Assembly (NCBI GenBank): GCA_017506865.1
Contig: JAFCMP010000532.1
Location: 558,001-622,000, forward strand
From: Tribonema minus
Taxonomy: Eukaryota; Sar; Xanthophyceae; Tribonematales; Tribonemataceae
Length of the DNA: 64,000 nt
Reading direction: 5' to 3'
A program made the position numbers and the translations under genes. How positions within the stretch are numbered: the stretch's first letter is position 1; each line of letters starts with the position of its first letter. This document shows positions 40,277-64,000 of the stretch, piece by piece. Under the pieces are notes generated by a model. It ran no database searches and was not told the origin of the DNA. It saw only the letters and a list, made by a program, of their open reading frames with translations.

Positions 40277-40634
40277 GCAAAGCAAAGTTGCAAAACAAAA
40301 CGCTGGCACCTGATGTGCCCCGCAACGCATGCATTTCACTGCTCACTTTCCCCGCTGCTGCTTCAAGTACTTGTATCGGCTCAAATGGCTAAAAGATGAC
40401 TGCCGAAGCGTTACCTGACACAAAGGAAGGTAGAGCACTCTTACAGCGTCAGACTCTGATGCGCAGAGTAGAGTCGCCACGAGATGCTGTTGTGCGCCTC
40501 GTCTGCTGGACTACAAGTCCGAGATAGCCAGGTTCACACACGACAAACACTCATTCGTGAAATGTCATTGTAATGACACCAACAGCAGCGTTGAATCTTG
40601 ATCAATCACAACTGATCCATGCAGTGACAACGCC
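40277..40634. other. Region downstream of IFT140
   Basis: 3' flank of IFT140, then no gene or repeat recognised; marks the change from the host gene block to the accessory block. Confidence 0.5.
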
Positions 40635-41987
40635 CTAATTTGATTTAAGATACAGTTGTGCCGCCACACCGCACAAGTCCCTCAGCCCCTGGTGTGGGAG
40701 GCGACGATATGTGCCTGGTACCCCTCCACCGCAACACAGCAGAGCTCGTGCAAAGACCACGGGCACCATGTCCCCCGCCAGAGTGTAGAGTTTGCTGAGC
40801 ACCTTGGCCTCAGTCCACTCCGAGTCGCAGGCCTCCACAAACATTGTAACTGCCTCCTTGAACTTATCCGTATCAAATACCTGCGGCGGGAAGGTTTGCT
40901 TCAAAAGCTTGAGGTGAATGCTCTCTACATGCTCATGTTCACCTACTGCATCGCAAAATTTTGGCCATGTGCCTGTGGTCACTGTACCAACTGGCTTGTC
41001 AATGCCACCTCTGAGGATTTTGGCCATAACCCTCCTTCAACTTGGAGTGCCCCTTAAAATGCGTGCATTTGGCAATACTAGTGCCATCTTTGCACGCTTT
41101 GTAGCCGAGCATCAACCCCTTCTTGTCTTTCATCTGTTCCAATCTGGCTGCACACCCCCACTGTGACTCAGTGCCCTTGCACTTGCTGGTTTACCCCCTG
41201 CCGTGCACGCCCTTGCTGTGCAGCTTGCCTGACTCTACGGTGCCTCCTATGATCCGCGCCCAGTGCTGGGGCACCCCGTAGTTGAAAGCATCCAAGTCCT
41301 GGCTTGGGATGCTGGCTCTAGTCAGCGCCTCGCGAACGGGCTGATGCAGAACCTCTTCAAACAGAAACTGCTTGTTCAGTCCGTGTCTCAGCAGCACGTC
41401 TGCCTGACAAGCTTGATGAACTCTACCGCCCAGTCAACCAGCTTCATGCCTGCGCTACGGTCCCTGTGCACGTTATGGCCGCTGAAGTCGTTGCATGGGG
41501 GAGACATCACGTACACCAGCTGACTCAGGATGCCGTTCTGCTTACAGTGCTTGCTGATGCGCTTCCAGCACCGGAAGGGGTCATACCCTCTTCCTCTGCA
41601 CCCAGACCCTGTAGTACATGTTCGCACATCGGAAACAGGTGCTGATGTACCAGGTGGGCAATGAATTGGATTATTGTCAAACCACATCAACGGCACCAGG
41701 CCCGCCATGGCGCCCCCCAGGGTCCAGCCCCCCATGCCCCCAAAGAGGGTGACCAAGTACCTTTTCTCGTGCGTGTCAGCGCGGCACGCACGAGTCCGCT
41801 CTGGTGCGGGCGGTGGGCTGGGCGCCTGATTGCGCCCATGGCTGCCACCAGAGTCGCCCACTGAGCGTGTACCAGCCCCGCCCCTGGCGCTGCTCCTGCT
41901 GCTGGTGCTTCTGCTGCCACGATACCAAGCAGCATCCCCCCCGCTGGCATCCTGAAGGCAGCAACAGCGACGGCGCGCAGACCGCAA
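40635..41987 (-). pseudogene. Cytosine-5 DNA methyltransferase relic
   Basis: Minus-strand coding remains of a C5 DNA methyltransferase: a motif I-like LVTLFGGMGGWTLGGAMAG, the catalytic motif IV block VYVMSPPCNDFS with its Pro-Cys pair, and a motif VIII-like NYGVPQHWARIIGGT. These occur in the usual order. Further 3', a Lys-rich segment (KGLMLGYKACKDGTSIAKC) and a block around EAVTMFVEACDSEWTEAKVL look coding but have no domain I know. The reading frame is interrupted several times, so the copy is not functional as a single gene. Such enzymes methylate CpG or other C sites and are carried by host genomes, viruses and some mobile elements. Its position beside the unknown 10.5-kb element suggests, but does not prove, a link. 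Confidence 0.7.
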
Positions 41988-42576
41988 GCTGGACGTGAGT
42001 GCGGGAGACTGTCATGTGCACAAAAATCCTCCGTTGCACATGAACTTTGTTCAAATGATCCTTCAAGACGTTCTCGCAAATCACCCTACAGCAACCAGTT
42101 CATGCTTGGCCCTCCAATTTTTTAAACTTATTGAAACGTACACCTGCTGCACTGTAATCCGTCCTGGTTCTCCATCAGGCGTGCACAGGAAAGTCAGACT
42201 CTGTCAAACCGGGCCAGTCTGAGACACACAATACCACCTTCTTATTGGGCTGCTGGGGAGGCTGCACTGCAGCTGCAGCTCCGTCTACCAGCATCAGAGC
42301 TGTGAGCCATCACCTCTGCCCTCGTCACCAGAAACGCGGAGTCAATCGCGGATGCAGCGACTCTCACCTGCTCCGAGCCTGAGTCGCTGAGAGCCATGTC
42401 GTTTGGCCCCGAGTCGCTGAAAGCCATGTCATCAGCGCCGCCTGTATCATGGTTTGCATTGCAATAAATGACACCCACAGGCGCACTATTGTGGCCTGGC
42501 CGCCTTGATGTGTATACATACTACGCATTTCCAGGGCGGGGGCCATATATACAGTGACCAGATCCATGAGGTAAGC
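41988..42576. other. Region between methyltransferase relic and copy A
   Basis: No gene recognised. On the minus strand it carries a short duplicated DMAFSDSG/DMALSDSG-type peptide repeat near 42380-42440, possibly part of the 5' coding region of the methyltransferase. Confidence 0.35.
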
Positions 42577-42907
42577 TGTGGCCTTGGGCCCAAGAAGTGT
42601 GCTGTCAAGTCATGACAGCGATCCAAGCAAGCTCCGTGGCTGAACAAGAAGAAGTCTTCATTCCATGATTTTGGGTGTTCAGCGATTATTATCCAGATAG
42701 ACATGCATGCAGCATTGCTCAGCGCAGCCCGCTGAGCATCCACTCCAGATCAGTCTCAACCTCAACTGGGAGTGTGTTGAACATTGCACAACCTCAACTT
42801 CAACACTTGCCAAACTTCAACTTCAACCTTGGAGTTCAACTTCAACTTAAACTGTTGCAACAGTGCTCAACATGCATTTTTGCACACTTCTGCCTACCGC
42901 TGCCACA
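42577..42907 (-). repeat. 0.33-kb direct repeat, outer end of copy A
   Basis: Begins TGTGGCCTTGGGCCCAAGAA. Nearly identical to 52780-53110 in the same orientation and to the complement of 58807-59125. Contains a CTTCAA/CAACTT-rich tract at about 42790-42850. Confidence 0.85.
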
Positions 42908-43898
42908 TACCCCCCCTGCATGGTGCTCTCTGCATCCATGCACAACCTGCAGCGGTACAAGCAATACGCATGTGCTGTGCCATCACTGGATGTCCTCACA
43001 TCACGTGCAAACAATCCGTTACATCTAGCACCTTGCTGCAAAACAGAAGCAGAAAACGCGTACAGCACAATGGCCGGTGCCAACGCACTGCGCTTGCGCA
43101 AACGCACAAACAACACTCCCCCCCCCCATGTCCTAGGCTGGGGTAGCAGCCCAGTTGTATAGTCCGTCGCACCACGCTAAAGGTCGCGACCAACCTCTTG
43201 GTACCCCAAACCCCGGCCTCGTTCCAGGCGCTGAATAGTCAGCGGCCAGAACTCTCGGGCGTTAGCTGCGTGATGACGACCTCCTCCTGCACTCGGCTAC
43301 GTGGAATGGGTGTGTGGCCAAACATTGCTAAGCTACAACATGTGCCCTCTTGCACATTTGAAAACCCGCTTGAGGCCTATAGCAACCACGGGTAAGCAGT
43401 CGGAGAATCTACGGTACTCCGTATTGTGTAGCGACAACTTTCTCCGCCAGACGCCGTGCCGCCTGCACTAACGCGAGGTCTGACATTTGATTGCCCATCA
43501 CCGAGCCAGATAGCCGGTGAAAACAACACTATGCTCCTGCTACCTGCGTATATAGTGGGAAACAGGCCAATAATATCTACCCCCCCATGACAGAGACGGG
43601 CTCCTCGTTTCCTCCCCGCCAAGACCACGCTCCGGCATGTTGCCTTGCCGCCATAGCTTGCACGCCAGGCATGCGACACTGTAACTCACGTGTCATCTCT
43701 TGCTCTACTAGTAGCGTCAAGCAACCTCGCCGGACTTGCGGTCAAAACAACAACTGTTGTACGCCAACGGCTCCTACAAGTGTCTGAGGCACAACCACCC
43801 CTCAACACCTCAGGCTGTCCTCCTCCGGCACCGCCTCCTCTCCTTGCCGCCTCAGGCGTCGGCGGTACTGAGCTCCACTAACGCGTATGACCCTCCGG

Positions 43899-46800
43899 TC
43901 AGCACATGATAGCCATGACACTTGGCCGCATGCACCTCCCTGACCTGCGTAGTGAGGAAAGCAGCATCACGCCGCCCTTGAGATTGCTCCTCCTCGGGCA
44001 CTCCGCCAAGTCCTGCCTGCTGTAAGCTGCCCCGCTGCGGTGTGAACGACCCACCAAGTCCGCAGTGAGCCGCCACCTGCGCACGTGAGCCCAATTGCTG
44101 GACACCACAACCTCCTCAGTGGCGACTGCCGCCCGAGCTCTAGCCCTCGATGCGTACCCAGGTGTGCGCATCATTGCTCTTCGTGGCACCGTTTGCACTC
44201 CGCTACTGCCGCCGACTTCCCCTGTCGCGTTAGGCTCCTTGTCCTCGAAGCCACGCGCCACCACATCACCATGCGCCTTCCGCCGCAAGCCTGCGGTGTG
44301 TGCCATCGGCTGTACATCTTTCTCCCTGCCGCGTAGCACCACCACATCATGCGTCCCGACCTCGTCGTCACGCAGCACAGCATAGCTGTAAGCCTTGCCT
44401 CCGCCGTTGCATATTGCATCGCAGCTGCCAGCAGTGTGTGCCTCACCCTCGCCGCTTGTATGCCCCGTATAGCTGCCGTTGTTGCGTGCGGCTACCTCTC
44501 CGGGGTCAATACTGCGTGTCGTCATTGCTGTACGCCCTGCCATCGGACTATGCTGCGCAGGCACTAGTGTTGCGCATTGCGCAGACGTCGTGATCCCAGC
44601 TCTTGCAGTGCCTTGCTGTACGAGCACCATTGCCTTGCGTCGCACGGCCTCCGCCAACCGACATGCGCCAGCTGTAGCCACTGCAACGAGCTGAACTGCC
44701 TCCATGGTGCACTCAACTGCCGAAGGGCTCCCAGCGATTGAGTGGTGCCCGTTGCTGGTGCTGATGGACACTGCTGCGCCACCACCTTCGCTGCTGTATA
44801 CAAGTGCAGGAGAAGCCGTGGCAATCACCATATTACTGCCCGCCGCGATAGGATCATGGCTGTTGGGCACTGCTGTCAAGGGTGCTAAGACGCCACAGTT
44901 GCTTCCAACCTCTCCGAACGATGCAGAGCCTTCACTGCTGTGGCACGATGCAACTCCTGTCCCTGTGTTGCTGCTGGTGCTGCTGAGCAACGTGACAGGT
45001 GTGCACTCCGTGCAGCGTCGAACTGTCAGAGGCAATGAGGGCAGCTGCACCTCGCCGTTGAGTCCTTCATTTTCGAGAGACTGTCGCTGATGCGCGTTGC
45101 AGGCGGTTTCGAAGAGACGCCCATGGCAGCAGGGACTGTTGCATATACCTTGCTACAGATCCCTGGGTCGAACGGCACAGAGGCGTCATCAATGCCATTA
45201 GCGGGCACAAGAGCGGCCTCCTCTGTTCTGGGCCCTGCAACCATGTGCGTTCGTGTTGGTGAGCCTGCCCACTGCACTTTAGGACACAGTGCCTGATGAA
45301 AACAAATGCCGCCTGTCAGTACAGAGCACTGCTGTTGCTGTGGTGCTGCGAGGAGGAGCTGCCGCTGATGCTGGTGCTGCGCTGGTGATAAACGCTGGAC
45401 CGGTGCTGACCGCAGCTGCTGCATTGCGGACGCTTGCTGTTGATTCGGCAGTGGTGGGCGTTGCCGTTGCAGAGCCTTGTGTGCCTTATGCGGCAGTAAT
45501 TTGCCAGTCCGCAGACCGAGTTGTGCTGTCTGGCTGATGTCGAGGGCCGCCCTTGCGGTACCACCACTGTCTGAAACCCATGCCGCCGTATCACCACCAG
45601 AATGACCAGCTGCCACCAACCGTTGTTGCTGGCGCAGCAAGTGGCCAGTATGCTGGCCGATCGCATATGTTGTACCTGTAGCCTCGTTTGACAGATGTGG
45701 TCGCTGATACTGTAAGGTTGTACGCGCCCGCTGCTGCAGCAAGAGGTCGCCGTTGCCAGTGCCAGCCGATGCTGCCGTGTCATCATTGCCGATATCTCCC
45801 CCCCCCACGCTCGAGAGCGAAGAAGAGAGCGTGCCAACACAGCAGCCAGGGCGGGAGGGCGGGTGGGAGCTAATGGCCTGCTGCTCAAGCAGTGCACCTG
45901 TGTGTAGATCCTGCATTACGTTGCTTGCCGCCTCCAGCAGGAGAGTAGAGCACTCCCCCATTCGGGATTGCTCAACCCCCTTAGTCGGGCCTGAGCCCAT
46001 GCCCATTGGCTGCAAGGTACCATCATGACCCGTTATCGCCTGTGCAGCATGAGAGCCCTGTAAATTGCCGGCATGGCCACCGACCAGGCTGAGCGTTATT
46101 GCTTTGGCTGTGCCGTTGCTAGCGGTTCCAGCCTGCGATACCAAGCTCTGTGCGCTGTGGAAGCTGCTGCATTGCCCAGCACCTGTCACACCTGAAGTCA
46201 GCGCAAAGCCGTGCGCAGTGCTGATGATACCACTGTCATGTGTACCGCCATCGAGAAGAACAGATAGCGGCACTGAGCTGTGGGTCCCAACACCACCTTC
46301 ACCTCCATCGACAGCTGACTGTGCAAAGCCTTGTGTAGACCGAGGCCCTGAGCTACAAGTCTCGTCGCCATTGGCGCCAGTAGACTTTGCCAGGCCTTGA
46401 GCGTTGCTGCCAGCACTCTCCATCGGCGGCTCCGAGCTTGGAGTCTGTGTGTGGCAGTCGCACCGTTCTGCGACACCATTAATGGCTGCACATGTGCACA
46501 CCTGAATGACACGGCCATGTCCATACAAAGCAGCGCTGAGCCTTGCGCCGTATCATGACGACCACCACTACTGACGGCGGATTGCGCGGTACTGTTTGTA
46601 ATGCTGCTACCAGCAGATGGTACTGTTGAGCTCCGTGATGGGCTGATAGCGTCACGACCACCACCATTGCCTGTCAACTGCGTGGAGCTTCCCGTACCCG
46701 TGTCGCCAGCAGGCGGCAACGCTAAACCACGTACCCCGTCGCCATTGCCACCACCGGCGTCAGCATGCTGTGCCAAGCTGTGAGCACTGCTGCTTATTTC

Positions 46801-49800
46801 CTCTGTCCGTGGCACTGAGCTTTGTATGTTGGCGCCTATGGTTGCGGCTGAGCTTCTCGCATTGCGTATGTGACCAGGTAGCTGCGTTGAACTGTGAGCC
46901 ATTCTGTCACCGTCAGCAATGCCGGCAGTCTGTGCCAAGCCCTGAGTCGGCACTGTGCTACTCTCATCGGGCCCAGCGAACGGCCCCACTTTCCACTTTG
47001 GACGCCAAGTTCTCCAGCAGCCCCTACGGCCACCGCCAAAACCTGTGTATCGTGCCCTTGACCGCCAGAAAGTGCCGCTGTGCTGTGCGTTGCGTCGCGG
47101 CGACCACCAATCACTTCAAAAGGCTCTGAGCAATGTCATCGACGCCGTTGACCAGGCTGAATGACGCTGGCCGTAGTGCCCTGCTGCAAGAACCCGTCGG
47201 CGTCTCTGAGCTCTGTGCATGGCCCCCGCGCTCGCCGATAGTCAGCAGTGTTGTGTCGGGGACGCTGCCCCCTTGACCATCAGGAACGTCCGAGCACTGT
47301 GTCAAGCCCGGAGCACCACCGCCATCAAGTGCGTAGGACAGCGTTGATGACTGCCCAGAACATGGAGGTCCACCTGCAGAACTTGACAAATGCACCAGGC
47401 CCTGAGTATTGCTGCCATGCGTGTCCAGCAGTGGAGTTGATTGCTGAGTTGTGCCGAAAGGACGGTCGATGCTGTGGGCGGAACACTGCCGTCTAAGCGA
47501 AGACACTGTGGTACTGTGCTGCGTGTGTCGCTGTCATGCCTGGAAGCAGCACCTGCAACCCTTGCTGAACACTGTGCACCACTGCTGCAAGGTCCAGTCA
47601 GCAGCGCTGAGGCAGACGTGCTGTAGATAGAGCCCGTATCCGATAGCGCTATGCAGCTGCATGCAGTGTTGCCATGCTCACAAGCAGCGCCTGCACCCTT
47701 TGCAGAGCACGGCTGCACGCCGACTTCACCACGACAGAGAGGCGCGGACGAGTGTGTTGTGCCGCCATTGCCACTACCGCTGCAAGCAGACTGTATGACG
47801 TTGTCCGTGATGTTATTGCCGGCCATTGGCCTAGCCGCCGTAGGTGCTGCTGCTTCATGTCCCTGGGCCTCGTCGTTGAGACTAGCACCGCCTCCTCCAC
47901 CCAGCACACAGCCCTCGTTGCCGCTGCCAAACTCATCTGTCCGCAGCATTGAGCACTGTTCACAGCGGTTCCCGCCTCCAACAGGACTCATAGATGGAGC
48001 AGACTGAGTGTCTTGCCCACTGCTGTGATGACCGGCAGACAGCTGAGTTGAGACGCCAGCGCTGCCATCATCGCTCCTGTCTGTCGACGTGAAGTCCGAT
48101 AAGTTGCCGCCACAACTAGCCTCCGATGCTGAGCTCCAAGGGCAGTATCCATGCTGACTAGCGATCTGTGGTGCCATGCTGAGGGTATTGCTGCCATGGC
48201 CACCAACAGTGTCCAAGAACTGCATGGAGCTGTGAGCACTGCTGCAATGAACACGTGGCTTTGAGATGTTCTGCATTGTCCTCTGTCCACGACCGCCAGG
48301 TGGATCCGTAGAGCCTGTGTGTTGCTCAGAGCACGTGGATAGAAGTATGCTTTCATGACCCTCCGCCGGCGGAGTTGGGCGACGAGCACTGCCAGCAGAA
48401 CTGTTGATCAACGACTCTGACGGCTGCTGCAGAACACTGCCGTCCATGTCCTGCCACGGACTCCGCGACATGCTACTGATCTCACACGCGGCACCTGCAA
48501 CCCCTGCAGACCACTGAGCACTGCTTTCCTGATCTTCAGGCAGCACCGCTGCATCCGGCGCAAAGCCATTCGGACCAGCTGTCACCATTGCTATGTTGAG
48601 CCTGAGTGAGCAGCCGACGAGAACACCTGTCCTTTGCACTTGGCCCGGTGCGCCGCTGTTGCAAACACCAGCCCGTGCTGAGCTCGGTGAAGTGCTGCCA
48701 TGCTGGCAAGCAGTCAGTGTTGCTGAGCCTCGTGCGCTGCTACCAACATCGTATTCCAGCCGCGCTGGCACAACGATGCCCAGGGTGCTGTCGCCTTCCA
48801 CAGCGGCATGGCTCCGAGACTGCAATCCAGTGCCAGCGTCACTAGTGCGTGTTGCTGACAGCAGTGCTACCGCGACGGCAGACAAGATGCCATGAACCGA
48901 TCCCGTATCTGCAGTACTAGCTGAGGTTTCTGCAGACAGGGACAGCGATACTGGTGCAGGCAACAGAGTACCTGACTGATGTGCCACGACAGCAAATTCC
49001 GTGTCCCTGCCCTGTTGTACCGCTGACGGATGTGCCACCTCCGCAAATGCCGTGTCCTTGCCCTGACTTCTACGCTTTGCAACCGCTCCACTCGCACCAG
49101 CCTGTGCTGCCGTTACTCCCGCCTAAGCTGCTGTTGACATCACCTCTGCCTGAGGCATGTGTTGCTGAGGTGCGCCCAATGCAGGTTCGCACAGTGTCGT
49201 CGGGAAGATGTTGTACCCGAGCCCTGAACACTGCCATCGACGCCCTTGACCAGCGGAGGCGCACTGACATCAACGTTACTGATTGCGTGTGGGTTCCGTG
49301 CATCGCTGCCACGTTCACAAGCAGCACATGCACCACTGCCCACTGGTGTTCTGTCTTCCCAACGCCCCCTGCTGCTGCCATCAGCTACTTGAGGTACCGG
49401 CAGCCCAGCAAGGACGATGCCCTCTCCAATGGCAACATGGCTGAGATACTGCAGCTCAGCAGCGTCACTACCTGACACTGATGTTGATGCTGATACAGCA
49501 ATGAGCAAGCCGTCACCAGTTGCTGCAGACCTCGCAGTGGCAGGCAGACGTTCTGCAGCCAACAGGGTACCTGATGTGATCTCTCCTCCAGCAGATTCCA
49601 TCCTTCCGACCCCGTGCTCCGCAACAGCCTCCATTGCATCTGCTTGTGCTGCAGCTGCACCCGCCTGCACTGTGGCTGGAACACATGCCGGCGCCTGCGT
49701 TCTGGCCAAAACACGCGTCTAGGCTGCCGCTGGAGCAGTTGTCGTTGGAGCACTCGTTCGCCTCGCGTCGCCAACGCGACCACCGCCATCGACATGCAAC

Positions 49801-51433
49801 TGAGCGCCGCCCCCACCGATGCTGAGCGTACTCGCTTGTGCGCCGCTGTCCGCGTCACCGCCTATGACTGTTGAGGCAATGTCGCAATGGCGGGTGGTAG
49901 GCGTGGTACCTCTGTTGGCACTGCTGCCCTAACGAGCCACCGCTGCCAATAAAGCACCGCCAGTGATTGCATGTGCATGATCGCCATCTGCACGCAGCCT
50001 CCCATGCGCGCTGGAGTCACCTGGCCCAGAGCAAACCTGGACCGCCGAGCACATCGGCACCCGCAGAGACTTGCCGGCTGCGCCATTCCCTACCCCGCTG
50101 CACTGACTGCGCGTCTCACCGCCTGCCACAGCCGGCGCATAGCCTGCACACGAGCTGCGCTGGAGCACTGAGGGCTGCATCTGAAACCCTTGAAGGCCAT
50201 TCTTGGGGCGGTGCGAGGAAACCCGATAGCCATCAGAGCTCAATCACGCGCGCAGTGGACTGGACGTATTGCAAGTGTATGCGCAGTCCAGCAAGGTGGG
50301 AGAAGACGCGTACACCAGCGGCCTAGCCCACTCCTCGACATCTGTTGGGACCATTACGTATGAGTCCGTCAGCGCCCGGTCAGGAGGTAGGGTGCGGAAG
50401 GAAGATACACTGCGCCCCAGTGGCTGTTGCTTATGCCACGCAAGCATGACTGCTGGCTGTCTTTTGCCGTTATGATGGGACGTACAAGTACTCCGCCATA
50501 ACCATCACGAATGTCTCGCAGACGCGCCTGGCCATCAAACGAGCATTTCACCTCCACCAGCATTGTAATATCGCCGGTGGTGACCCCCGGAAGTCCACAG
50601 CGTGCCAGCAGACGAGTGTTACGAGGCAACCAACAAGGCGCTAGCTGCCAAGCCGGTATCTCCACTTCCCTGCCGAGCCGAGGGTGCCAGATACGCACCA
50701 TATCAGTCACCTTCGAGAACGGATGTGACACTGGCTGTGCATGATCTGTGACCTGCGCAAAAGAGGGCATCGCCTTCTTGTCTGCGTAACTGATGCTGTA
50801 GTACAGGACCACCTCACCAACCTGAGGCGCCCATGAACTGACCTCGCCAGTTATCCATGCCTCCTTCCAATCCGCCGCCTCGAAGTCCTTGTTGGGACGG
50901 ACCTCACCATTAGGACCTGCGCCGCCGCCACAGACCAGCGTGACTCGACCGGAGTCAGGATGAACCTCAGCCACCGTCCACACAACCCGCTCGTATGCTG
51001 TGCATAGGACCTCGTCATTGTCGGTGAAGGACGCGCAGCAGTCTAGCTCGTCTCGGGGCTCCCACGTTGACACCATACAACCGCTGGTGACCGAGGCCGG
51101 CGGCACCAACCGATAATCCGGCACGTCAGTTGGGTAAGGATGCTCCGAGACGAACGGACCGTACGCCTGATTGAAGTCCCTGAGCTCCTTCGCAAGAGCG
51201 TCAGGCTGGTGTGCTGCTGCTGTGGCTGCCGTCCAGCGTGGTTGCTCACGTGCACCTGCCCCATCCAGCTCGACTGCACCGCGTGTAGAACTGAGGCACG
51301 GCAAAGCAGCTTCGACGGCATCTGTACGTGATGTTGTCATCGGTGGCCTCAAGTTTTTCGACACGTTACTGAGCATGCCGAAGTTCCGCCATGACTGTAC
51401 ACCATCTTCCCTCGGTCTCACCGAAGCTGGCAT
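43899..51433 (-). pseudogene. Coding tract of copy A: unknown N-terminal block plus giant low-complexity region
   Basis: Starts on the minus strand near MPASVRPRED (51433). The first ~330 codons are non-repetitive, with blocks such as WRNFGMLSNVSKNLRPP, FVSEHPYPTDVPDYRLVPP and VTDMVRIWHPRLGREVEIP; I recognise no family. The remainder is dominated by Ser, Gly, Ala, Thr, His and Cys, with recurring modules of the type AGAACE...DGSV and runs like GGNGxTHSSA. The tract keeps long open stretches over 6 kb but is broken overall. Predicted to be largely disordered or a secreted or surface-type repeat protein; this is inference from composition only. Confidence 0.5.
48975..49070 (-). repeat. 51-bp coding tandem repeat, copy A version
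   Basis: One full and one partial unit encoding GKDTAFAEVAHPSAVQQ and a variant. Copy B has one more unit at the matching place. Confidence 0.75.
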
Positions 51434-52779
51434 GTCATGCGCTCTCAACGTCGTTGCCGAATGAGCTCACCATGATTGTCTCGATCATCCGATGATCACT
51501 GAGCTCAATAGACGAGAGTCAAGCAAGCTGATACGCCGTTGCCGAGCCAGTTTGTATGCCAAGTTTCTGCACCAGACGTCTGCAGCACCCCCCCCCCAGC
51601 GCCGTAGGCGGTGTAGAGCTGCAGTACGTGTGACCACTAAGCCAGCGACACCAATGAGCACGCGCAATGTAGCCCACCCGACGGCGTTGCGCCCGAGGCA
51701 GCAGGGTGTGGCAGCGCTGCCTCGCAAGAAAAAGTGGCTGTCGAAAATCAATTGCGCACGCCATGAATTCCGCCAGGCCGTAGGACACTGTGCTCCGAAG
51801 TAGGCAATATCGCAATGCTGTAGAACTAGCAGTTTGCCAGAGCACGCAACCGTGCGACCTCGGCAAACACGCAGAATACGCCTCGAAAACTAGCAACATA
51901 GCGAAAACTGCAACATGAGGCCACAGAAGTACGCTGCGATCGTGCGAGCAGGCCAGCTACGACAATCGAGAAGCAGGCTAGATGACGTACCGATGTACTG
52001 CGCCGCTGCCTCAACGCCACGCCAGCGCTGCTCGCAATCGCTCCTCAGCGCCAACCAATTAACCCGGTTCTCCTGTTTTTCCACCAAGCGCCAGCCCCAC
52101 TGCGCACCCAAGCGCCAAAGCCGCCCAGATGACCCGCAAGGCTCCCACCAGCTCCAAAGCACCACACGCCAGTCCCCCAGTCCTGTGCGTCACACACCGC
52201 TCTGCGCGTTCGACGTGTAACAGCCACCGGAAGTTGAAATGTGTGCGAGAAAACGGCGACGTAGGCGTGATGCGAGCCCACGAATGCCTGTAGATGAAGA
52301 TTGCCACGCTAATCCTTCAAATCTTGTGCGTACGCCACACACCGCCCTGCAAAACTGTGCGCGTTCGATGTGTAACTGCCCACCGGAACAGTTGAACTGC
52401 GTGCGATGGCGATGCGCGTAGGCTGCGGCGAAGCGCACGGATGCCTGTAGAAAGTTTGCCGTTGCCCAATGAACCAAACTACCACGTAGGCTGTCAGCAG
52501 CCCTTAAACTGGCGGTCTGGCGGGCTGGGGTCCTCCCCAGTACCGTCCGGCTGACGATACGATCGCAAACACTTCAAAAAGAAGTGCGTGCGCCAGAAAG
52601 CAGACCTCGGTGCGCCGAGGCTGACAGGAAGAAGGTCCGAACGGTCCTGGATGCCGTTCTGTCCCTGCCACTTGTGAAGTCGGGGCCCCTGTCAGCAGGG
52701 AACACCCGAGGAACCTTTGTCTGCGGGCGGGGCGTGCCCCAGGACGTAGCGTCCAGATCCGCAAACTCCGGTCACCAAA

Positions 52780-53110
52780 TGTGGCCTTGGGCCCAAGAAG
52801 TGTGCTGTCAAGTCATGACAGCGATCCAAGCAAGCTCCGTGGCTGAACAAGAAGAAGTCTTCATTCCATGATTTTGGGTGTTCAGTGATTATTATCCAGA
52901 TAGACATGCATGCAGCATTGCTCAGCGCAGCCCGCTGAGCATCCACTCCAGATCAGTCTCAACCTCAACTGGGAGTGTGTTGAACATTGCACAACCTCAA
53001 CTTCAACACTTGCCAAACTTCAACTTCATCCTTGGAGTTAAACTTCAACTTCAACTGTTGCCACAGTGCTCAACACGCATTTTTACACACTTCCGCCTAC
53101 CGCTGCCACA
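52780..53110 (-). repeat. 0.33-kb direct repeat, inner end of copy A
   Basis: Same sequence and orientation as 42577-42907. Its inner neighbour sequence (below 52780) matches copy B directly, so on this side the repeat joins the element's leader. Similarity to the outer repeat stops at 53110 and resumes for about 50 bp at 53346. Confidence 0.85.
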
Positions 53111-53345
53111 AAGCTTCCAGATTGGCCAAGGTGTCGAGTGAGTAGTAGGGGTTGCAAACAGCGCAGCATTGCTCAGCGCATGACGCTAACCCTCGCCCTA
53201 CATGCGGAGCCACCCTACTTCAACTTCAAGTTGAACATCAACCTCAACTTTAGGTCGAACCTGTAACTTCAACAAATGCATGCAGAGTTGTGCGCTTCTT
53301 ATCAACCGTTACACATGTGCTGTCGCACTTGCACCTCTGCATGCG
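53111..53345. repeat. Possible 235-bp insertion with 11-bp duplication
   Basis: CCGCTGCCACA occurs at 53100-53110 and again at 53346-53356, where similarity to the flank of the outer repeat (CATACCCCCCC.GCATGGTG) resumes. The intervening 235 bp carries its own CTTCAAGTTGAACATC-type tract. This fits an insertion with target duplication, though a segmental rearrangement is equally possible. Confidence 0.45.
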
Positions 53346-55267
53346 CCGCTGCCACATACCCCCCCAGCATGGTGCTCTCTGCATCCATGCACACCACCGG
53401 CAGCTGTCATTGGCTCCTGTCTTTTTATTGTGCATGCCTGTGCAGAACAACTGCATGAATAAGTGTGCAAAATGCTCTGTGGCTCGCTGGCAAACATCAC
53501 TGCGCGAGAGCACTGCAGGCACCACATGCAGCAGCAATTGTGCAAGGCCGCACACACACAGAGCTACGTAAGGATAGTCACAGACTGCCCAGTGACGCAA
53601 AGCATACTCCCTCCCCCCATCGCTGAGCGGTGCAAGACCCATCGCGCTGCGCGTCTCCTCCTCTTGAGGCCACACCTGATGCTGCTATCATCCGCTTGCT
53701 CGGCCTTAAGTGCATACTCTGCAGTACCCTTGCCGCATACATCAAGAAACTGATTGCGGCATGATGTGCATAGGCAAGTCAAATGACCTGCTCGAGGGTG
53801 ACAACAGAAGGCCATGCCAGCAGTGCTACAGCATCAGATGGGCTCCGCTCTCTAGCTCTAGCACCTCAGCGCTCTGAAAGATTGGCATAGGGCCGTTACT
53901 GCGCCATAACACACTTGGTATTGACTCGAACCCCCTGATTCCTAATCGCCAGAGCTCCTCCACGCACGTCCTGCGCCGCCTGTAGCTTCTAGCTAACCCG
54001 AACACACACATTGCCGCAGCGGAAGCAGCATGCCTCTCCAGTTCCTGAGCACTGTCGCCGTGATCCCGCGCTCCTGAGCAGGTCCTGTTCTCCTGCGTGG
54101 CGACCTCTTTGGCCCGCCGTGTTTTGCCCTGTCCCTGATGCACCTCCACCGTCCGCCATGACCGCCTGAGCGCGTGGCCAACAGTGCAGCGCCTACGCCT
54201 GCACTGATACCGCCGCCGCATGTCCACTGCACCATGGCCACCATCCGTCCCTAGGGTTGCAACGCTCGCACATGCCTGCGCGCCGCTGACCTCCCCATGT
54301 ACGGGCCGGGCCGTACATGAACACAGCCAGCGCGCTATAAGGGTGGGTGGGCGGGATTTGTGGCCTGCACCCCGTCCATGTGGCTCGCTACGTTACAAGC
54401 CGCACTCATTAAGGGGTACATGCCACATGCCCCCCCCCAGGATCCAGACGCTTATGTGGCATGTGCAGGGAGACGGCGACAACAGCTGCGCCGTGCTGCT
54501 GCTGCAAGCCGTGCTGAACGGAGCTGGCGCCTGCAACCCCGCGCGCGACAAGTGCCCGCTGCTGGTGACGGGCAGGAGGGCATGCAGGGTAATCAACTTG
54601 AAGAAGGAGGGGGTTGAGTTCATGCAAAACAGGGAGACATGGAGGCACCTGAGTAGGGAGCTGCTTCACTGAGGTTCACACTGGTCAATAGACTTGACAG
54701 AGGCTGCTGCGTATTCTTGACATGTTGTGGCGTATGTTGCTCGAAGTCACTTGGCAGTGCCTGTCGTGATTCTACAAGATCATGATGGCCACAAGCCGGC
54801 CTTCATCACCAGCTCATCTAGATTTCGCCGCATTACGCGTATACTAAGAAGGCAGTGAGCGGCAGCAGCAAATCATCATGTCGGCAATAGTGGCGGCAGG
54901 CGATCATGCATGACAGATGCATGCACGGTCTAGACAGCCTCAGAGCCTTGCGGCGGCACTGCGGGGTAAAAAGCGTTTGCCGCCTCAACGCGCTTCCTGG
55001 CATCTTGACTCGAAGTGCTCGCAAGCGTCATACAGAGCACGCTACTGCATGACTCTGCACCATACTGTGTCGTCCTTTTCAGCAGCACTACTACTCGGTT
55101 CACAATTCTCGAACCCACTTTTCAAGCATTCGGTACTTCGATTGCCCAATGAACTTCCCTGCAAATTGGTGCAACACGCTCGTTAAGTACTACTCTATCA
55201 GCGCATATGCAGTGACCAGCTCCATGCCTGTCGTGTGCTATCTCTCTTTCACTGAAAAATTGCGCAC

Positions 55268-55951
55268 AAGAAAGCATCCCCCTCTTGAAGGAACGGGGGG
55301 CGAGCGATCCGGAACAGACAGCCTCTTTTGTAAGTTGCGCTTAAAGCAAGTCAGAGGCCATCACCTCAACATGTGCTTGAATCTTATGTGCATCACCACC
55401 TCATGTTTTCAGTTGCATTGAGATCATGGTATTCGGCATGCTGCGGGATTACATCTGCATTGCCATTGAGCCGTGCTGCCACGCTTAGCACATCAGCACA
55501 CCACCATTCTGGCGAACAGCGCCAAAAAGGGTTTCTTTCTGACCCTTAGTTAGGGTTAGGGCCTCAGAAGTTGCGCGTAACGGCTTGAAGTAGAGGAAGT
55601 AGGCGATGGCGAGAGCTCTGCAGGCCGCGAAGCGTGGCCGCAGGCTTGCGGCTGCAGTACGATATGTGCTAAGCGCCGCCCGCTGCATGCGGTCAGCGCC
55701 GCTTGTGCAGCAACACCTCGCGAGCTGGAGCCGGCGCGAGAATAAGCTTGCAGCTTCTGAATGTTGCCCTGCGGTGTTCCTCGAGCAGCGGCAAATAGAC
55801 TCCAGCCCGCTGATTGGTGAACGGTTGTAGCGGTACGCACGTACGCATACCCGCTCGCAAAAATCAGCACGCCCAGATGCATCAGTAGCGCGGAGACTTG
55901 CGCACGCCATGACATAAGAAGGCTCGCGCCCTGAAGGGTCCCTCGCCTACA
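55268..55951 (-). repeat. 0.7-kb dispersed repeat, unit C
   Basis: Full-length minus-strand copy of the family present as a dimer at 1696-3152. It keeps the CTCGCCTACA end and the G-rich end. The telomere-like motif is expanded here (TTAGTTAGGGTTAGGG at 55546-55561). Confidence 0.85.
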
Positions 55952-57177
55952 AAATTGCCGACCTCGTTTCTTCAAGCCGCCGTAAATTGCACACCCTTTG
56001 ATGGCTTTACATGCAACTTGGTGAGCTGCAATTTCCACATGTTGAACATCTTGTACATCATACAGCAAACGTGCCAAGGCCATTCCTGTCGCGCGGTATC
56101 TCCATTCGTCTGCATCGTTGTGCTCAAAACTGCTCCACTTGTCAAGTAGTCGTCGCTCACAGACGACATGGTGAATTTCCGCGAAAATTTGAGAAATGTG
56201 ACCGCTCTGTCTCGGCCTAACAGCACAGATGTAGAGAGCATGTCAGCTCCATCGCTGTCACGCGTATCTCCATTCTGCTGCGTTGTTGTTAAGGTTACTG
56301 CAGGATCGTTTTAGGGGCATTTTATCGCGCTCTTGAACGATTAGTACTGCGCAGAGACGGAGGTGCTGGCGACAACAGTGATAACTTTGACGCTGAATGC
56401 CAATCGCAAATCGGCTTGCTCTGCCCCGATCTCACACAGTCAGGCTATGACTTTGCTTAGAAGCGCACATGTCGGTGTGCATGGAACGAGACAAAAGCTT
56501 GCCCCCGTTTTTGAAGGCACTTTTAGCTGAAATGTGCACAAGTCACCGAAACCAGCACGCGCTGCGCAGCGCTCTGGTAGGATGACTCATCACGAGCACA
56601 TTTATGGAATTGCTTAGAATGGCTTTTCTCGACTTTGCCTGCGTCAAAAGCTGTATCAGTCCAAAGAGGTGCACAGTATCACCTTGTACTAGCTCAGGCA
56701 CTGGTTCTGATGTTCCTGCAGCACGTATGAATCATACCCAGATGCCAGCAGTAGAGTTGCGTTGGTTTCTTAGCAGGACGGCCGTGATGGCTGTGGTTGT
56801 CGCATGCTGTCGTGAAAGTGGACTATGTGTGAACATCGTGCTTGAGGAGCACGTACCTGCCTCCCACGGACCTGCAGCCATGATTTGAAGTTCAGTGGCA
56901 TGTCCGGCTATTTGTTGCGCAGATGACATACATGTGTTGATTGCTAAGCGCCCAGCTCACGACGCATGCATGACCACATCGCACCAAATGCAATGGTACG
57001 TACAGTTTTTGGGGGGAGGGAGGAGCTGGGGATTGTAATGCTGTAAGGTCTTCACGTATGAAATTGTATAGGTAATTAACTGCCATCGGGGTGGGGTGGC
57101 TTTTGAATTATATATCACCAACTGCCATCTCAACCAATTGCCATCTTAGTGGCTATTGAATGAGGACAGCGCACCTC

Positions 57178-57237
57178 GGGTTAGGATTAGGGTAACCTGA
57201 ACCCCAAATTTGATCTAATCTTACCCTAACCCTAATG
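57178..57237. repeat. Degenerate telomere-type tracts in opposed orientation
   Basis: GGGTTAGGATTAGGG at 57178-57192 and TTACCCTAACCCTAATG at 57221-57237, i.e. the same motif facing inward across about 28 bases. Confidence 0.7.
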
Positions 57238-58759
57238 TCCCTTTCAGCAACATAGCAGTATGCACTAGCGATACTGTTGTCTGCTTGGGTCTCCTGTGCT
57301 TCCACCTCTGGCACTATATTGAGCAATCACGCTCGCAGCAGCATATATGGTAGGACTGCGAGTGCGCAGGGGCAGCTGCGCCCTGATGAGGCAGAGAGAG
57401 AGCATACTCTCGACAATCTCAGAAGATGGCAAGTATGCTGTGGCGTGATTCTGACTTATGGAGCAACACAAAAAGTTGCAACTTTTGGAAGCTGCTGCTC
57501 ATTCACAAAGTAAAAGGTGTTTTACTCTGCGAATGCGCTAGTTAGGCGCCATCACACGTGGCTTTGTAAACATCCTGTCGCGTAAGAGCAGTGCCACGAC
57601 TCAGTTGCAAGTCTTCCGAAGAGCAAGGCTGTGTATCTACATCAGCGCAAATACATTTGAACAGCACATGAACGTGCTGGTGAAGCAGCCATCTGATTGA
57701 TTCGGCATGACTCGAAGATTGACTCAAAGGTCTGATTTGTTTCTTTTACCCCAGAGCCCAGTCTAACTGTGCCATGTAGAGACAAGGCATCGAGCTGTAG
57801 CTGAAGAGTAGTGGTATAGTGCAGCAGTGTAGCAGTGGAGTAGTGTTCTTTTGCTGCAGTCAACGCCACATGCGGCTTGCCGCAGGTCCTGCCAAAATGG
57901 CCCTTGCACCAGTTCGCGTTGACAGCAAGGCTTGTTGGTGCCAAGGCGTGACTCGCAAGTTATTGTTGCAGCCGATTGATGCCGCCCACAAACTAGACGA
58001 GGAGTGTTGTCAGTGCGGTACACAGCCTATCTTCAGGCTGTGGACCAATTACGCACTGACGTTCAACGCCAACACCATGTACAACAGCAGCAGGTATATA
58101 GGCTGGCGCCTGCTGAGCGCTAATCACTTCGGCCTGTTGTGTGGCGGCGCCAGGACATCAACGGTCACACACAGCATCTGTGCCCAGGTGCTGCTTGCTG
58201 CACTGCAGCAGTCTCTTCCACACAGGCTGCAGCCCGACATCGGCAATTACGGTCTGTCAAACCAGCCTGACCTTGATGATGTGTTAGGTCAACCCTGGGC
58301 AAGGAGCTCCGCCTCCAGTGTCTCAATTGTACGCACAGAACTTGAGCGTTGATGGCCGCTTCCCCGTCCGTACCTTTGCCAACACACCAAGTCTAAAGCC
58401 TTCTAAGTGCAAACAGTCTTTGGCTGAGGACTCGCTGTTCACGCTTGTGGCAGCGGTGCATGCAGATGTGCAAGTGGGACAGCATGTATGGTGATTGTTG
58501 AAAAGTGCACATTTTGCATGCAATCATTGAAGTTAATGTCTATTGAAGCAGAACTAGTTTGTTTGATCAAGCTGCGAGCACAGCTTTGGTGTTCCCACAT
58601 CATATGTCAACAAAAACGAGCACGGCTTTGAGCAGTCTCCTTCCATACGCTGATAACCGTTGACACTATGCCAGGCATACGTGTTTCAGGGCAGATTACG
58701 AGGCCGGCACCTATTTCCGGGATTTCTCCCGACCATAGGGGGTCGCTTTGGTTTCAATG

Positions 58760-58774
58760 CTAACCCTAATCCTA
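58760..58774 (-). repeat. Short telomere-type patch
   Basis: CTAACCCTAATCCTA, two to three degenerate units, about 30 bases before the inner end of copy B. Confidence 0.6.
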
Positions 58775-59450
58775 GGCTGTTGGTTTATGGCGCTGATGAG
58801 CGCTGTAGGCAGAAGTGTGCAAAAATGTATGTTGAGCACTGTTGCAATAGTTGAAGTTGAAGTTGAACTTCAAGTTGAAGTTGAAGTTTGGCAAGTGTTG
58901 AAGTTGGGGTTGTGCAATGTTCAACACAATCCAGTTGAGGTTGAGACTGGAGTGGATGCTCAGCGGGACGCGCTGAGCAATGCTGCATGCATGTCTATCT
59001 GGTTAATAATCACTGAACACCCAAAATCATGGAATGAAGACTTCTTCTTGTTCAGCCACGGAGCTTGCTTGGATCGCTGTCATGACTTGCCAGCACACTT
59101 CTTGGGCCCAAGGCCACATTTGGTGACCGGAGTTTGCGGATCTGGACGCTACGTCCTGGGGCACGCCCCCGCCCGCAGACAAAGGTTCCTCGGGTGTTCC
59201 CTGCTGACAGGGGCCCGGACTTCACAAGTGGCAGGGACAGAACCGCATCCAGGACCGTTCGGACCTTCTTCCTGTCAGCCTCGGCGCACCGAGGTCTGCT
59301 TTCTGGCGCACGCACTTCTTTTTGAGGTGTTTGCGATCGTATCGTCAGCCGGACGGTACTGGGGAGGACCCCAGCCCGCCAGACCGCCAGTTTAAGGGCT
59401 GCTGACAGCCTACGTGGTAGTTTGGTTCATTGGGCAACGGCAAACTTTCT

Positions 59451-59730
59451 ACAGGCATCCGTGGGCTTCGCCGCAGCCTACGCGCATCGCCATCGCACGC
59501 AGTTCAACTGTTCCGGTGGGCAGTTGCACATCGAACGCGCAGAGTTTTGCAGGGCGGTGTGTGGCGTGGCGTACGCACAGGATTTGAAGGATTAGCGTGG
59601 CAACCTTCATCTACAGGCATTCGTGGGCTCGCATCACGCCTACGTCGCCTTTCTCGCACACAGTTCAACTTCCGGTGGCAGTTACATGTCGAACGCGCAG
59701 AGTTTTGCAGGGCGGTGTGTGCGCACAGGA
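59451..59730 (+). repeat. About 160-bp tandem duplication in the element leader
   Basis: Two diverged units, starting at TACAGGCATCCGTGGGC (59451) and TACAGGCATTCGTGGGC (about 59611), each leading to CGAACGCGCAGAGTTTTGCA. The same pair is present in copy A at about 52190-52450, so the duplication predates the copying. Confidence 0.75.
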
Positions 59731-60460
59731 CTGGGGGATTGGCGTGCGGTGCTTTGGAGCTGGTGGGAGCCTTGCGGGTCATCTGGGCGGCTTTGGCGCT
59801 TGGGTGCGCAGTGGGGCTGGCGCTTGGTGGAAAAACAGGAGAACCGGGTTAATTGGTTGGCGCTGAGGAGCGATTGCGAGCAGCGCTGGCGTGGCGTTGA
59901 GGCAGCGGCGCAGTACATCGGTACGTCATCTAGCCTGCTTCTCGATTGTCGTAGCTGGCCTGCTCGCACGATCGCAGCGTACTTCTGTGGCCTCATGTTG
60001 CAGTTTTCGCTATGTTGCTAGTTTTCGAGGCGTATTCTGCGTGTTTGCCGAGGTCGCACGGTTGCGTGCTCTGGCAAACTGCTAGTTCTACAGCATTGCG
60101 ATATTGCCTACTTCGGAGCACAGTGTCCTACGGCCTGGCGGAATTCATGGCGTGCGCAATTGATTTTCGACAGCCACTTTTTCTTGCGAGGCAGCGCTGC
60201 CACACCCTGCTGCCTCGGGCGCAACGCCGTCGGGTGGGCTACATTGCGCGTGCTCATTGGTGTCACTGGCATAGAAGTCACACGTACTGCAGCTCTGCAC
60301 CGCCTACGGCGCTGGGGGGGGGGTTGCTGCAGACGTCTGGTGCAGAAACTTGGCATACAAACTGGCTCGGCAACGGTGTATCAGCTTGCTTGACGCTCGT
60401 CTATTGAGCTCAGTGATCATCGGATGATCGAGACAATCATGGTGAGCTCATTCGGCAACG

Positions 60461-63400
60461 ATGTTGAGAGCGCATGACATGCCAGCTTCGGTGAGACCGA
60501 GGGAAGATGATGTACAGTCATGGCGGAACTTCGGCATGCTCAGTAACGTGTCGAAAAACTTGAGGCCACCGATGACAACATCACGTACAGATGCCGTCGA
60601 AGCTGCTTTGCCGTGCCTCAGTTCTACACGCGGTGCAGTCGAGCTGGATGGGGCAGGTGCACGTGAGCAACCACGCTGGACGGCAGCCACAGCAGCAGCA
60701 CACCAGCCTGACGCTCTTGCGAAGGAGCTCAGGGACTTCAATCAGGCGTACGGTCCGTTCGTCTCGGAGCATCCGTACCCAACTGACGTGCCAGATTATC
60801 GGCTGGTGCCGCCGGCCTTGGTCACCAGCGGTTGTATGGTGTCAACGTGGGAGCCCCGAGACGAGCTAGACTGCTGCGCGTCCTTCACCGACGATGATGA
60901 GGTCCTATGCACGGCCTACGAGCGGGTCGTGTGGACGGTGGCTGGGGTTCATCCTGACTCCGGTCGAGTCACGCTGGTCTGTGGCGGCGGCGCAGGTCCT
61001 AATGGTGAGATCCGTCCCAACAAGGACTTCGAGGCGGCGGATTGGAAGGAGGTATGGGTAACTGGCGAGGTCAGTCCATGGGCGCGTCAGGTTGGTGAGG
61101 TTGTCCTGTACTACAGCAGCAGTTACGCAGACAAGAAGGCCATGCCCTCTATCGCGCAGGTCACAGGTCATGCACAGCCAGTGTCACATCCGTTCTCGAA
61201 GGTGACTGATATGGTGCGTATCTGGCACCCTAGGCTCGGCAGGGAAGTGGAGATACCGGCTTGGCAGCTAGCGCCTTGTTGGTTGCCTCGTAACACTCGT
61301 CTGCTGGCACGCTGTGGACTTCCGGGGGTCACCACCGGCGATATTACGATGCTGGTGGAGGTGGAATGCTCGTTTGATGGCCAGGCTCGTCTGCGAGACA
61401 TTCGTTATGGTTATGGCGGAGTACTTGTACGTCCCATCATCAACGGCAAAAGACAGCCAACAGGCATGCTTGCGTGGCATAAGCTACAGCCACTGGGGCG
61501 CAGTGTATCTTCCTTCTGCACCCTACCTCCTGACCGGGCGCTGACGGACTCATACGTGATGGCCCCAACAGATGTCGAGGAGTGGGCTAGGCCGCTGGTG
61601 TACGCGTCTTCTCCCTCCTTGCTGGACTGTGCATCTACTTGCAATACGTCCAGTCCACTGCGCACGTGGTTGAGCTCTGTTGGTTACCGAGTTTCCTCGC
61701 ACCGCCCCAAGAATGGCCTTCAAGAGTTTCAGATGCAGCCCTCAGTGCTCCAGCGCAGCTCGTGTGCAGGCTATGCGCCGGCGGTGAGACGCGCAGTCAG
61801 TGCAGCAGGGTAGTGGATGGCGCAACCAGCAAGTCTCTGCGGATGCCGATGTGCTCGGCGGTCCAGGTTTGCTCTGGGCCAGGTGACTCCAGCGCGCACG
61901 GGAGGCGGCGTGCAGATGGCGATCATGCAAGTGCAATCACTGGCGGTGCTTTATCGACAGCGGTGGCTCGTCAGGGCGGCACTGCCGACAGAGGTACCAC
62001 GCCTACCACCCGCAACTGCGACATGGTCTCAACAGTCATTGGTGACGCGGACAGCGGCGCACAAGCGAGTACGCTCAGCATCGGTGGGGGCGGCGCTCAG
62101 TTGCATGTCGATGGCGGTGGTCGCGTTGGTGACGCGAGGCGAACGAGTGCTCCAACGACAACTGCTCCAGCGGCAGCAGAGACGCGTGTTTTGGCCAGAA
62201 CGCAGGCGCCGGCATGTGTTCCAGCCACAGTGCAGGCGGGCGCAGCTGCAGCACAAGCAGATGCAATGGAGGCTGTTGCGCAGCACGGGGTCGGAAGGAT
62301 GGAATCTGCTGGAGGAGAGTTTTCGTCAGGCATTCAGTCGGCTGCAGAACGCCTGGCTGCCACTGCAAGGTGTGCAGCAACTGGCGACGGCTTGCTCAAT
62401 GCTGCATCAGCATCAACATCAGTGTCAGGTAGTGACGCTGCTGAGCTGCAGTATCTCAGCCATGTTGCCATTGGAGAGGGCATCATCCTTGCTGGGCTGC
62501 CGGTACCACAAGTAGCTGATGGCAGCAGCAGGGGGCGTTGGGAAGACAGAACACCAGTGGGCGGTGGTGCATGTGAGTCAGAGCGGGCTACGGGCTCTGA
62601 ACATTGCGTGCCTGCTTCAGCGCTGTTCGAACATGATGCCAGCAGTGGTCATTGCCCTTCCGGGTGCACAGGTGCTGCTTGTGAACGTGGCAGCGATGCA
62701 CGGAACCCACACGCAATCAGTAACGTTGGTGTCAGTGCGCCTCTGCTGGTCAAGGGTGTCAATGGCAGTGCTCAGGGCTCGGGTACATCATCTTCGCCGA
62801 CGACACTGTGCGAACCTGCATTGGGCGCACCTCAGCAACACATGCCTCAGGCAGAGGTGATGTCAACAGCAGCTCAGGCGGGCGTAACGGCAGCACAGGC
62901 TGGTGCGAGTGGAGCGGTTGCAAAGCGTGGAAGTCAGGGCAAGGACACGGCATTTGCGGAGGTGGCACATCAGTCAGCGGTACGACGGGGCAAGGACACG
63001 GCATTTGAGGAGGTGGCACATCAGTCAGCGGTACAACAGGGCAAGGACACGAAATCTGCTGTGGTGGCACATCAGTCAGGTACTCTGTCGCCTGCACTAG
63101 GGTCGCTGTCCCTGCCTGCAGAAACCTCAGCTAGTACTGCAGGTACGGGATCGGCTCATGGCATCTTGTCTGCCGGCGCGCTAGCACTGTTGTCAGCAAC
63201 ACGCACTAGTGATGCTGGCACTGGATTGCAGTCTCGGAGCCATGCCGCTGTGGAAGGCGACAGCACCCTGGGCATCGTCGTGCCAGCGCGGCTGGAATTC
63301 GATGTTGGTAGCAGCGCACGAGGCTCAGCAACACTGACTGCTTGCCGGCATGGCAGCACTTCACCGAGCTCAGCACGGGCTGGTGTTTGCAACAGCGGCG

Positions 63401-63888
63401 CACCGGGCCAAGTGCAAACGACAGGTGTTCTCGTCAGCTGCTCACTCAGGCTCAACATAGCAATGGCGACTGCTGGCCTGAATGGCTGTGCGCCGGATGC
63501 AGCGGTGCTGCCTGAAGATCGAGGCAGCAGTGCTCAGTGTTCTGCAGGGGTCGCAGGTGCCGCATGTGAGATCAGCAGCATGTCACGGAGTCTGTTGCAG
63601 GGCGTGGACGGCAGTGTTCTGCAGCAGCTGTCAGAGTCGTTGATCAACAGTGCTGGCAGTGCTCGTCGCTCAACTCCGCCGGCGGAGGGTCATGGAAGTA
63701 TATTCACGTGCTCTGAGCAACACACAGGCTCTACGGATCCACCTGGCGGTCGTGGACAGAGGACAATGCAGAACATCTCAAAGCCACGTGTTCATTGCAG
63801 CAGTGCTCACAGCCCCATGCAGTTCTCGGACGCTGTTGGTGGCCATGGCAGCAACGCCCTGCAGCATGGCACCACGGACCGCTGGTGA
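60461..63888 (+). pseudogene. Coding tract of copy B: unknown N-terminal block plus low-complexity region
   Basis: Starts with ATG at 60461 (or the ATG 18 bases on, at MPASVRPRED). The first ~450 codons are non-repetitive and about 96% identical in protein to copy A; notable blocks are LVCGGGAGPNGEIRPNKDFE, VGEVVLYYSSSYADKK, VTDMVRIWHPRLGREVE and VSSHRPKNGLQEFQMQPSVL. No family recognised. The following Ser/Ala/Gly/Thr-rich part carries the 17-residue tandem repeat and AACERGSD/AACEISSM modules. The tract is not one intact gene. Confidence 0.5.
62938..63080 (+). repeat. 51-bp coding tandem repeat, copy B version
   Basis: Units at 62938-62988, 62989-63039 and a partial third at 63040-63080, encoding GKDTAFAEVAHQSAVRR, GKDTAFEEVAHQSAVQQ and GKDTKSAVVAHQSG. 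One unit more than copy A, showing repeat-number change since duplication. Confidence 0.85.
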
Positions 63889-64000
63889 GCATGGATGCTG
63901 CCCTTGGAACTCGGCATTGGAGACTAGTTCTGGCGGCAACTCATCCGACTCGACATCGACAGACGGGAGCGCCGATGGCAGCGCTTGCGTCTCGATGCAG

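Follow-up and report, generated by a model that had tools for sequence, protein, structure and literature searches.

The right-hand end of this 64-kb window raises the question of how two long, closely similar stretches of DNA came to lie there in opposite orientation. The window is the whole stretch analyzed, C529:558001-622000 of a 158-Mb assembly of 554 contigs; C-numbers denote contigs of the same assembly, and all other coordinates are those of the window. A first-pass annotation offered two origins for the pair, namely, the head-to-head insertion of two elements or the duplication of one locus as a palindrome. With a probability of roughly 0.8, we regard the pair as two independent insertions of a non-autonomous, helper-copied family of Ty3/gypsy-type long terminal repeat (LTR) retrotransposons, referred to here as E, within clustered repeat regions. 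As an inverted duplication, the structure would then be ordinary: a clustered LTR element inserted twice, in opposite directions.

Two elements in opposite orientation

Comparison of the window with itself gave an inverted match of 49325-53103 to 62575-58802 (95.6% identity over 3,797 columns; 6,078 bits, far above chance) and another of 48050-49330 to 63993-62669 (89.4% over 1,334 columns). The next 20 kb beyond the window (L009 and L010) was also fetched and compared, and the match between the arms continues into L009, past the window end. The inverted repeat first annotated as having arms of about 5 kb is therefore real, but its outer edges were misplaced because they reflect the window end and the reader's stopping point; the true arms measure 10.5 kb and 10.7 kb. 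The alignment bears out the inner edges, at 53110 and about 58802, and with them a spacer of 5.7 kb.

The left arm, E1 (42577-53110, minus strand), is an LTR retrotransposon bounded on both sides by its LTRs, its flanks, and sharp ends common to copies on other contigs. Its 331-bp 5' LTR (52780-53110, minus strand) and 331-bp 3' LTR (42577-42907, minus strand) are 97.6% identical and have TGTGG...CCACA ends; the flanks carry the target site duplication AAGC at 42573-42576 and 53111-53114. A polypurine tract, GGGGGGG in the minus-strand sense, occupies 42910-42916, two bases from the 3' LTR. Because this G run adjoins the LTR ending at 42907 and the long open reading frames (ORFs) are on the minus strand, E1 most likely reads from 53110 to 42577. 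The second copy, E2, runs from 58802 to C529:627533, which is 69533 in window numbering, with 58802-64000 inside the window, and shares its boundaries with copies on other contigs. Its parts follow the order of E1 on the plus strand, so that the pair stands head to head across 5.7 kb, with the long ORFs of both arms pointing away from the spacer. The outer few bases of the E2 5' LTR (58802-59118, plus strand) have been replaced, and no target duplication was seen around it. With its own pair of LTRs in each arm, opposite orientations, and AAGC around E1, the locus agrees with the proposal of two elements placed head to head. Across nine elements compared, exact 4-bp target duplications flank four (E1, the partner element described below [CATG], C537, and C46), and a 5-bp direct repeat flanks the copy at C312:307498, giving five of nine with repeats of 4 to 5 bp.

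In the gag position, both arms hold a frame designated ORF1: a stop-to-stop frame at 50372-51466 (minus strand) in E1, 90% identical by aligner to the 450-amino-acid ORF1 of E2 (60461-61813, plus strand), which is related to the gag-position ORFs of the partner element. Further long frames lie at 47305-49122 (606 amino acids), 45029-46552 (508 amino acids), and 43902-45152 (417 amino acids) on the minus strand of E1 and at 61639-63888 (749 amino acids) on the plus strand of E2. None of the eight E1 and E2 ORFs searched had a Pfam family above cutoff, Pfam searches found no zinc finger in ORF1, and AlphaFold2 models of both window ORF1 sequences were unusable (mean pLDDT of 28). The ratio of nonsynonymous to synonymous substitution rates in ORF1 was 0.43 over 28 pairs (single pairs, 0.30 to 0.99), compared to 0.73 and 1.68 in shifted frames; judged by this ratio, ORF1 is under moderate constraint. 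A 51-bp tandem repeat of 2.8 copies was also seen in E2, at 62935-63079, and none was reported in E1.

The sequence on either side of E1 belongs to another repeat, X, which occurs at many loci. One part (42490-42576, minus strand) is contiguous at other loci, with a 4-bp overlap, with the sequence from 53111 onward; the other part (53111-54452, minus strand) comprises an LTR-like end, a polypurine tract, and about 1.1 kb of interior. The 87 bp before E1 and 246 bp after it together form a 333-bp LTR-like unit, and an X site free of E1 is found, for example, at C38:353942-354033 and 354030-355377, contiguous with the 4-bp overlap. By this comparison of occupied and empty sites, E1 is inserted into an older copy of X. 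The sole match found between E1 and X is 62 bp across the X polypurine tract, at 91.9% identity. The additional inverted patch within the spacer, first read as a sign that the arms were once longer, does exist (53264-53356 against 58446-58535, 78.5% over 93 columns), but it is no remnant of the arms, from which it is separated by 154 bp on one side and 267 bp on the other. It is instead a piece of the X family: the fragment at 58446-58535 (plus strand) pairs with many X copies and is related to the end of the LTR-like part of X.

The origin of the pair was gauged from trees, distances, and block-by-block comparisons. In a tree of eight copies based on a 4.3-kb internal stretch, E1 was placed with the C87 and C312 copies (0.998 to 1.0) and E2 with the C537 copy (0.939). 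By raw distance over the same stretch, E2 is closer to the C9, C540, and C537 copies than to E1, and the smallest distance of E1 is that to E2 (3.4%, with C87 at 3.5%). Each arm was also divided into 500-bp blocks, which were compared with the other arm and with copies fetched from eight other contigs. The other arm came out closest for only 8 of 31 blocks (5 of 21 from E1 and 3 of 10 from E2), with six of the eight at 98.4 to 99.8% identity. Arm-to-arm blocks in this range lie at 43577-44076, 45077-45576, and 51077-52076, amid blocks of 78 to 96%. Such near-identical blocks may reflect gene conversion between neighbors. Taken together, the tree and block comparisons favor separate insertions as the best account of the pair.

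Were the pair instead a single element locus duplicated as an inverted segment, with the arms diverging later, the high identity of the arms would be expected, as would the blocks that match the opposite arm best and the short raw distance from E1 to E2. We consider this origin highly improbable: E1 has a target duplication of its own, the arms are placed apart in the tree, the outer part of E2 agrees with C537 and C87 at about 98%, and no similarity was seen between the left and right flanking sequences of the arms. The LTRs also argue against it, in that those of E1 differ from each other by 2.4%, less than the cross-arm pairs, which differ by 3.3% and 5.1% for the two computed of four possible; the two LTRs of E2 differ by 3.8%. 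Long inverted repeats can mislead assemblers; even so, an assembly artifact is scarcely credible here, because the arms differ by 4 to 10% in aligned stretches and the target site of E1 is seen unoccupied in other X copies, and E1 again has its target duplication to set against this explanation.

A probable methyltransferase-bearing partner

A candidate for the helper is an element of 15.3 kb at C312:327197-342513, which has E-type LTRs differing by 2.7% from each other and CATG on both sides. Its domains are, in order, a cytosine-5 (C5) DNA methylase (PF00145, 2.7e-18, with the match covering the first half of the profile), reverse transcriptase (RT; RVT_1, 3.1e-28), RNase H (RT_RNaseH, 2.1e-13), and integrase (rve, 3.2e-16). 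The Ty3/gypsy order of RT, RNase H, and integrase is thus present in this partner element and not in E1 or E2. At their 5' ends, the partner and E1 have 1.1 kb in common, with 91.6% identity, and at their 3' ends 0.7 kb, with 93.5% identity. ORF1 matches the partner's gag-position ORFs in two alignments, one of 214 residues (49% identical) and one of 143 residues (69% identical). In a tblastn search with nine partner ORFs against window positions 40001-64000, L009, and L010, neither E1 nor E2 gave a match to RT, RNase H, or methyltransferase; the matches were confined to the gag position and one integrase-like relic in the part of E2 beyond the window (L009:4406-4600, 45% over 69 columns). Pfam searches of eight partner and ORF1 frames at E values up to 10 gave no further family above cutoff, and no chromodomain match was obtained at E values up to 10 in the partner frame that follows the integrase.

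E1 and E2 consequently look, on the strength of shared ends and missing domains, like a large non-autonomous derivative (LARD type) of an RT-bearing family, and it is quite probable that E is mobilized in trans by the partner-type family. It is unlikely that another autonomous family moves E, with the methyltransferase-bearing element being a mere relative with which E swapped LTRs. E copies are mosaics, as such swapping would predict, and the nearest relative of the partner LTR at C312:327197, at a distance of 0.6%, is an LTR of the neighboring E copy at C312:307498, which suggests exchange. Swapped LTRs fit poorly, however, with shared sequence that spans both ends and includes 1.1 kb at the 5' end, or with the finding that all six contigs with an RT of at least 84% identity (10 of 117 listed matches) carry an E or X locus, although on C176 the counted E/X locus may be the partner-type element's own LTR.

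The partner's methyltransferase is not a solitary case. At least 123 scored C5 methyltransferase matches occur in the genome, many in frames of >1,000 amino acids. Thirty-nine of these 123 lie 2.3 to 6 kb upstream of a listed RT match on the same strand; within 7 kb of listed RT matches, none lies downstream and none on the opposite strand. Several retrotransposon families therefore seem to carry a methyltransferase. Between E1 and E2, C/T differences reach 7.1% before G and 2.0 to 4.4% before other bases, and G/A differences reach 4.9% after C and 1.2 to 4.0% after other bases. The corresponding values for 28 non-independent pairs of E copies are 6.9% versus 2.4 to 3.6% for C/T and 6.2% versus 2.4 to 3.3% for G/A. 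As an indirect sign, this substitution bias would fit CpG methylation and decay. The observed/expected ratio of CpG is 0.70 to 0.84 across all parts measured, genes included.

Genome distribution and candidate centromeres

All locus counts given here are lower bounds, as several genome scans scored or listed only part of their candidates. Positions of E were taken from 37 of 41, 40 of 40, and 41 of 44 matches of three scans, with adjacent pieces left out. Those of X came from 32 of 105 matches, after removal of short motifs, the patch at 58446, other spacer repeats, and adjacent pieces; contigs with only short X-related pieces (e.g., C40, C101, and C119) did not enter the X count. The remaining sets comprised 10 of 15 matches for the other spacer repeats, 70 of 72 for a sister RT family (51 to 64% identical to the partner RT), 35 of 35 for a distant RT family, and 9 of 10 for partner-type RT, the last used only for the joint count of E and X loci.

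On this basis, at least 33 E loci are present on 32 contigs, with spans of 0 to 62 kb. Among the matches listed, an E locus lies no more than 20 kb away from 16 of 22 X loci, compared with 1 of 66 (sister RT), 1 of 32 (distant RT), and 0 of 10 (other spacer repeats) control loci. Of the 39 matches from a scan of the 5' region in which every candidate was scored, 36 were on E contigs. E, X, and partner RT together occupy at least 39 loci on 38 contigs, with two loci on one contig only in the case of C212. The patch that holds E1 and E2 is itself rich in repeats and adjoins ordinary genes. It is fairly likely that insertion is targeted to certain short regions.

The proposed course of events would be as follows. 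E retains the parts that a helper would need for recognition, namely, the LTRs, the polypurine tract, the first kilobase, and the gag-position ORF, and it would be copied in trans by an RT-bearing family that has near-identical LTRs and also encodes a C5 DNA methyltransferase. Most new copies would enter particular short regions, frequently within older X elements, and nested insertion into such regions would suffice to produce head-to-head pairs by chance.

Besides the small raw distance from E1 to E2 given above, several observations weigh against this account. Four of the nine elements compared (E2, C540, C223, and C87, the last with 3 of 4 bases matching) lack an exact target duplication, and the coding sequence of the partner is split over several frames. 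Three of the 39 matches of the 5'-region scan (71 to 77% identity, on C62 and C40) lie off E loci, and within-contig spacing in the fully scored scans did not set E (1 of 4 contigs) apart from the sister family (6 of 9 contigs; P = 0.27). The co-localization of E and X, moreover, is not wholly independent evidence, because the two are partly nested.

By analogy with the Ectocarpus elements discussed below, the E loci could be centromeres, a tentative identification to which we give close to an even chance. The E clusters are thereby sequence-defined candidate centromeres. The fuller proposal, that a centromere at the window end was built by a retrotransposon system whose partner brings a cytosine methyltransferase, in a brown-alga-like lineage, is rather doubtful; on that reading, the family would mark, and perhaps help to silence or define, the centromeres that it has colonized. 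The E loci may instead be generic repeat-rich sinks, or the product of self-nesting, in which elements survive because copies inserted close to genes are eliminated. This is a serious possibility, though somewhat below even odds: nested insertion is indeed seen, with E1 in X and the partner beside X on C312, but a generic sink should also collect the sister and distant Ty3/gypsy families, and these are nearly absent from the vicinity of E loci in the counts above.

Known systems and neighboring sequence

The comparisons with published systems draw on excerpts of the cited papers. In Ectocarpus, the centromeres carry ECR-1, a 6.6-kb Ty3/gypsy element with Gag-Pol, 4-bp duplications, and a chromodomain, together with ECR-2; both are all but confined to a single region on each chromosome (median, 38.6 kb) and share about 64 bp that includes a polypurine tract (PMC11541908). 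Likened by description only, the E system resembles them in its Ty3/gypsy type, its short regions of tens of kilobases, its 4-bp duplications, and its two co-localized families sharing about 60 bp with a polypurine tract (62 bp at 91.9% between E and X). Unlike ECR-1, E is 10.5 kb long and lacks RT, and its 15.3-kb partner has a C5 methyltransferase and no detected chromodomain. Because no chromodomain was detected behind the integrase, we have not filed E or its partner as an ECR element. Plant CR/CRM elements are of the Gypsy type and have centromeres as nearly their sole insertion sites; non-autonomous members are mentioned (PMC4079200, PMC5818461). Their hosts set them apart from E. CR/CRM elements are targeted through a chromodomain and are not known to carry a methyltransferase.

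As in the partner, a cytosine methyltransferase domain forms part of the coding region of KnitGypsy-Dnmt3, a Gypsy-type element of Klebsormidium nitens (PMC5890265). It is of the Dnmt3 class, has a DIRS-like repeat arrangement, unlike the plain LTRs of the partner, and belongs to another lineage; the excerpts of PMC5890265 report no link to centromeres. The same paper describes methyltransferase-bearing elements of the LINE and DIRS types in Symbiodinium. The Ectocarpus LARD and LGA elements are large LTR elements without a recognized polymerase, and LGA has a gag-like ORF of about 400 amino acids (PMC3145265). E is similarly large, without a recognized polymerase, and provided with a gag-position ORF, but no zinc finger was found in its ORF1, and a probable RT-bearing partner has been identified for it. 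No centromere-restricted element with a methyltransferase is named in the open-license literature, as far as these excerpts extend.

Apart from DNMT2, DNMTs are reportedly missing from brown algae, and the sister lineage Schizocladia has DNMT1 (PMC13076208); low methylation has been reported in Saccharina (PMC6916402). If the host is a brown alga, the present elements bear on the reported loss, in that mobile elements may supply methyltransferases. The novelty is reduced because methylase-coding Ty3/gypsy and DIRS elements in stramenopiles have already been stated in general terms (PMC6338049).

No tRNA or Rfam RNA was reported in the window, and five flank and spacer ORFs had no Pfam match at E values up to 10. 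A frame at 41388-42011 (minus strand) resembles C5 methyltransferase motifs by eye and had no Pfam match at E values up to 10; the DNA of 40300-42489 has almost no further match in the genome. Exon-like gene pieces beside the repeat region include coronin (3.8e-42, 13593-14282, minus strand) and an IFT140-like gene (4.4e-28, 23808-24488, plus strand). Fragments of rbcL in the genome appear to be of the red type, on which ground a green-algal host was set aside; a bacterial or phage origin is contradicted by the exon-like pieces and the 158-Mb assembly.

The EsV-1-7 cysteine motif is greatly expanded, with 550 candidates, of which 150 were scored as matches; the same scan included 14 control genomes, which are, as far as named, prokaryotes and have little bearing on eukaryotes. 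EsV-1-7 genes are expanded in brown algae and patchy elsewhere (PMC7457493). Together, the IFT140 and coronin pieces, the rbcL fragments, and this expansion make a brown alga or a near relative the probable host. Other dispersed repeats in the spacer, recognized from the window self-comparison and genome matches, occupy 55266-56672, and one such family has two tandem copies at 1695-3152 and one spacer copy at 55266-55952 (72 to 80% identical). Short telomere-like CCCTAA/TTAGGG patches lie inside the spacer at 57180-57240 and near 58765.

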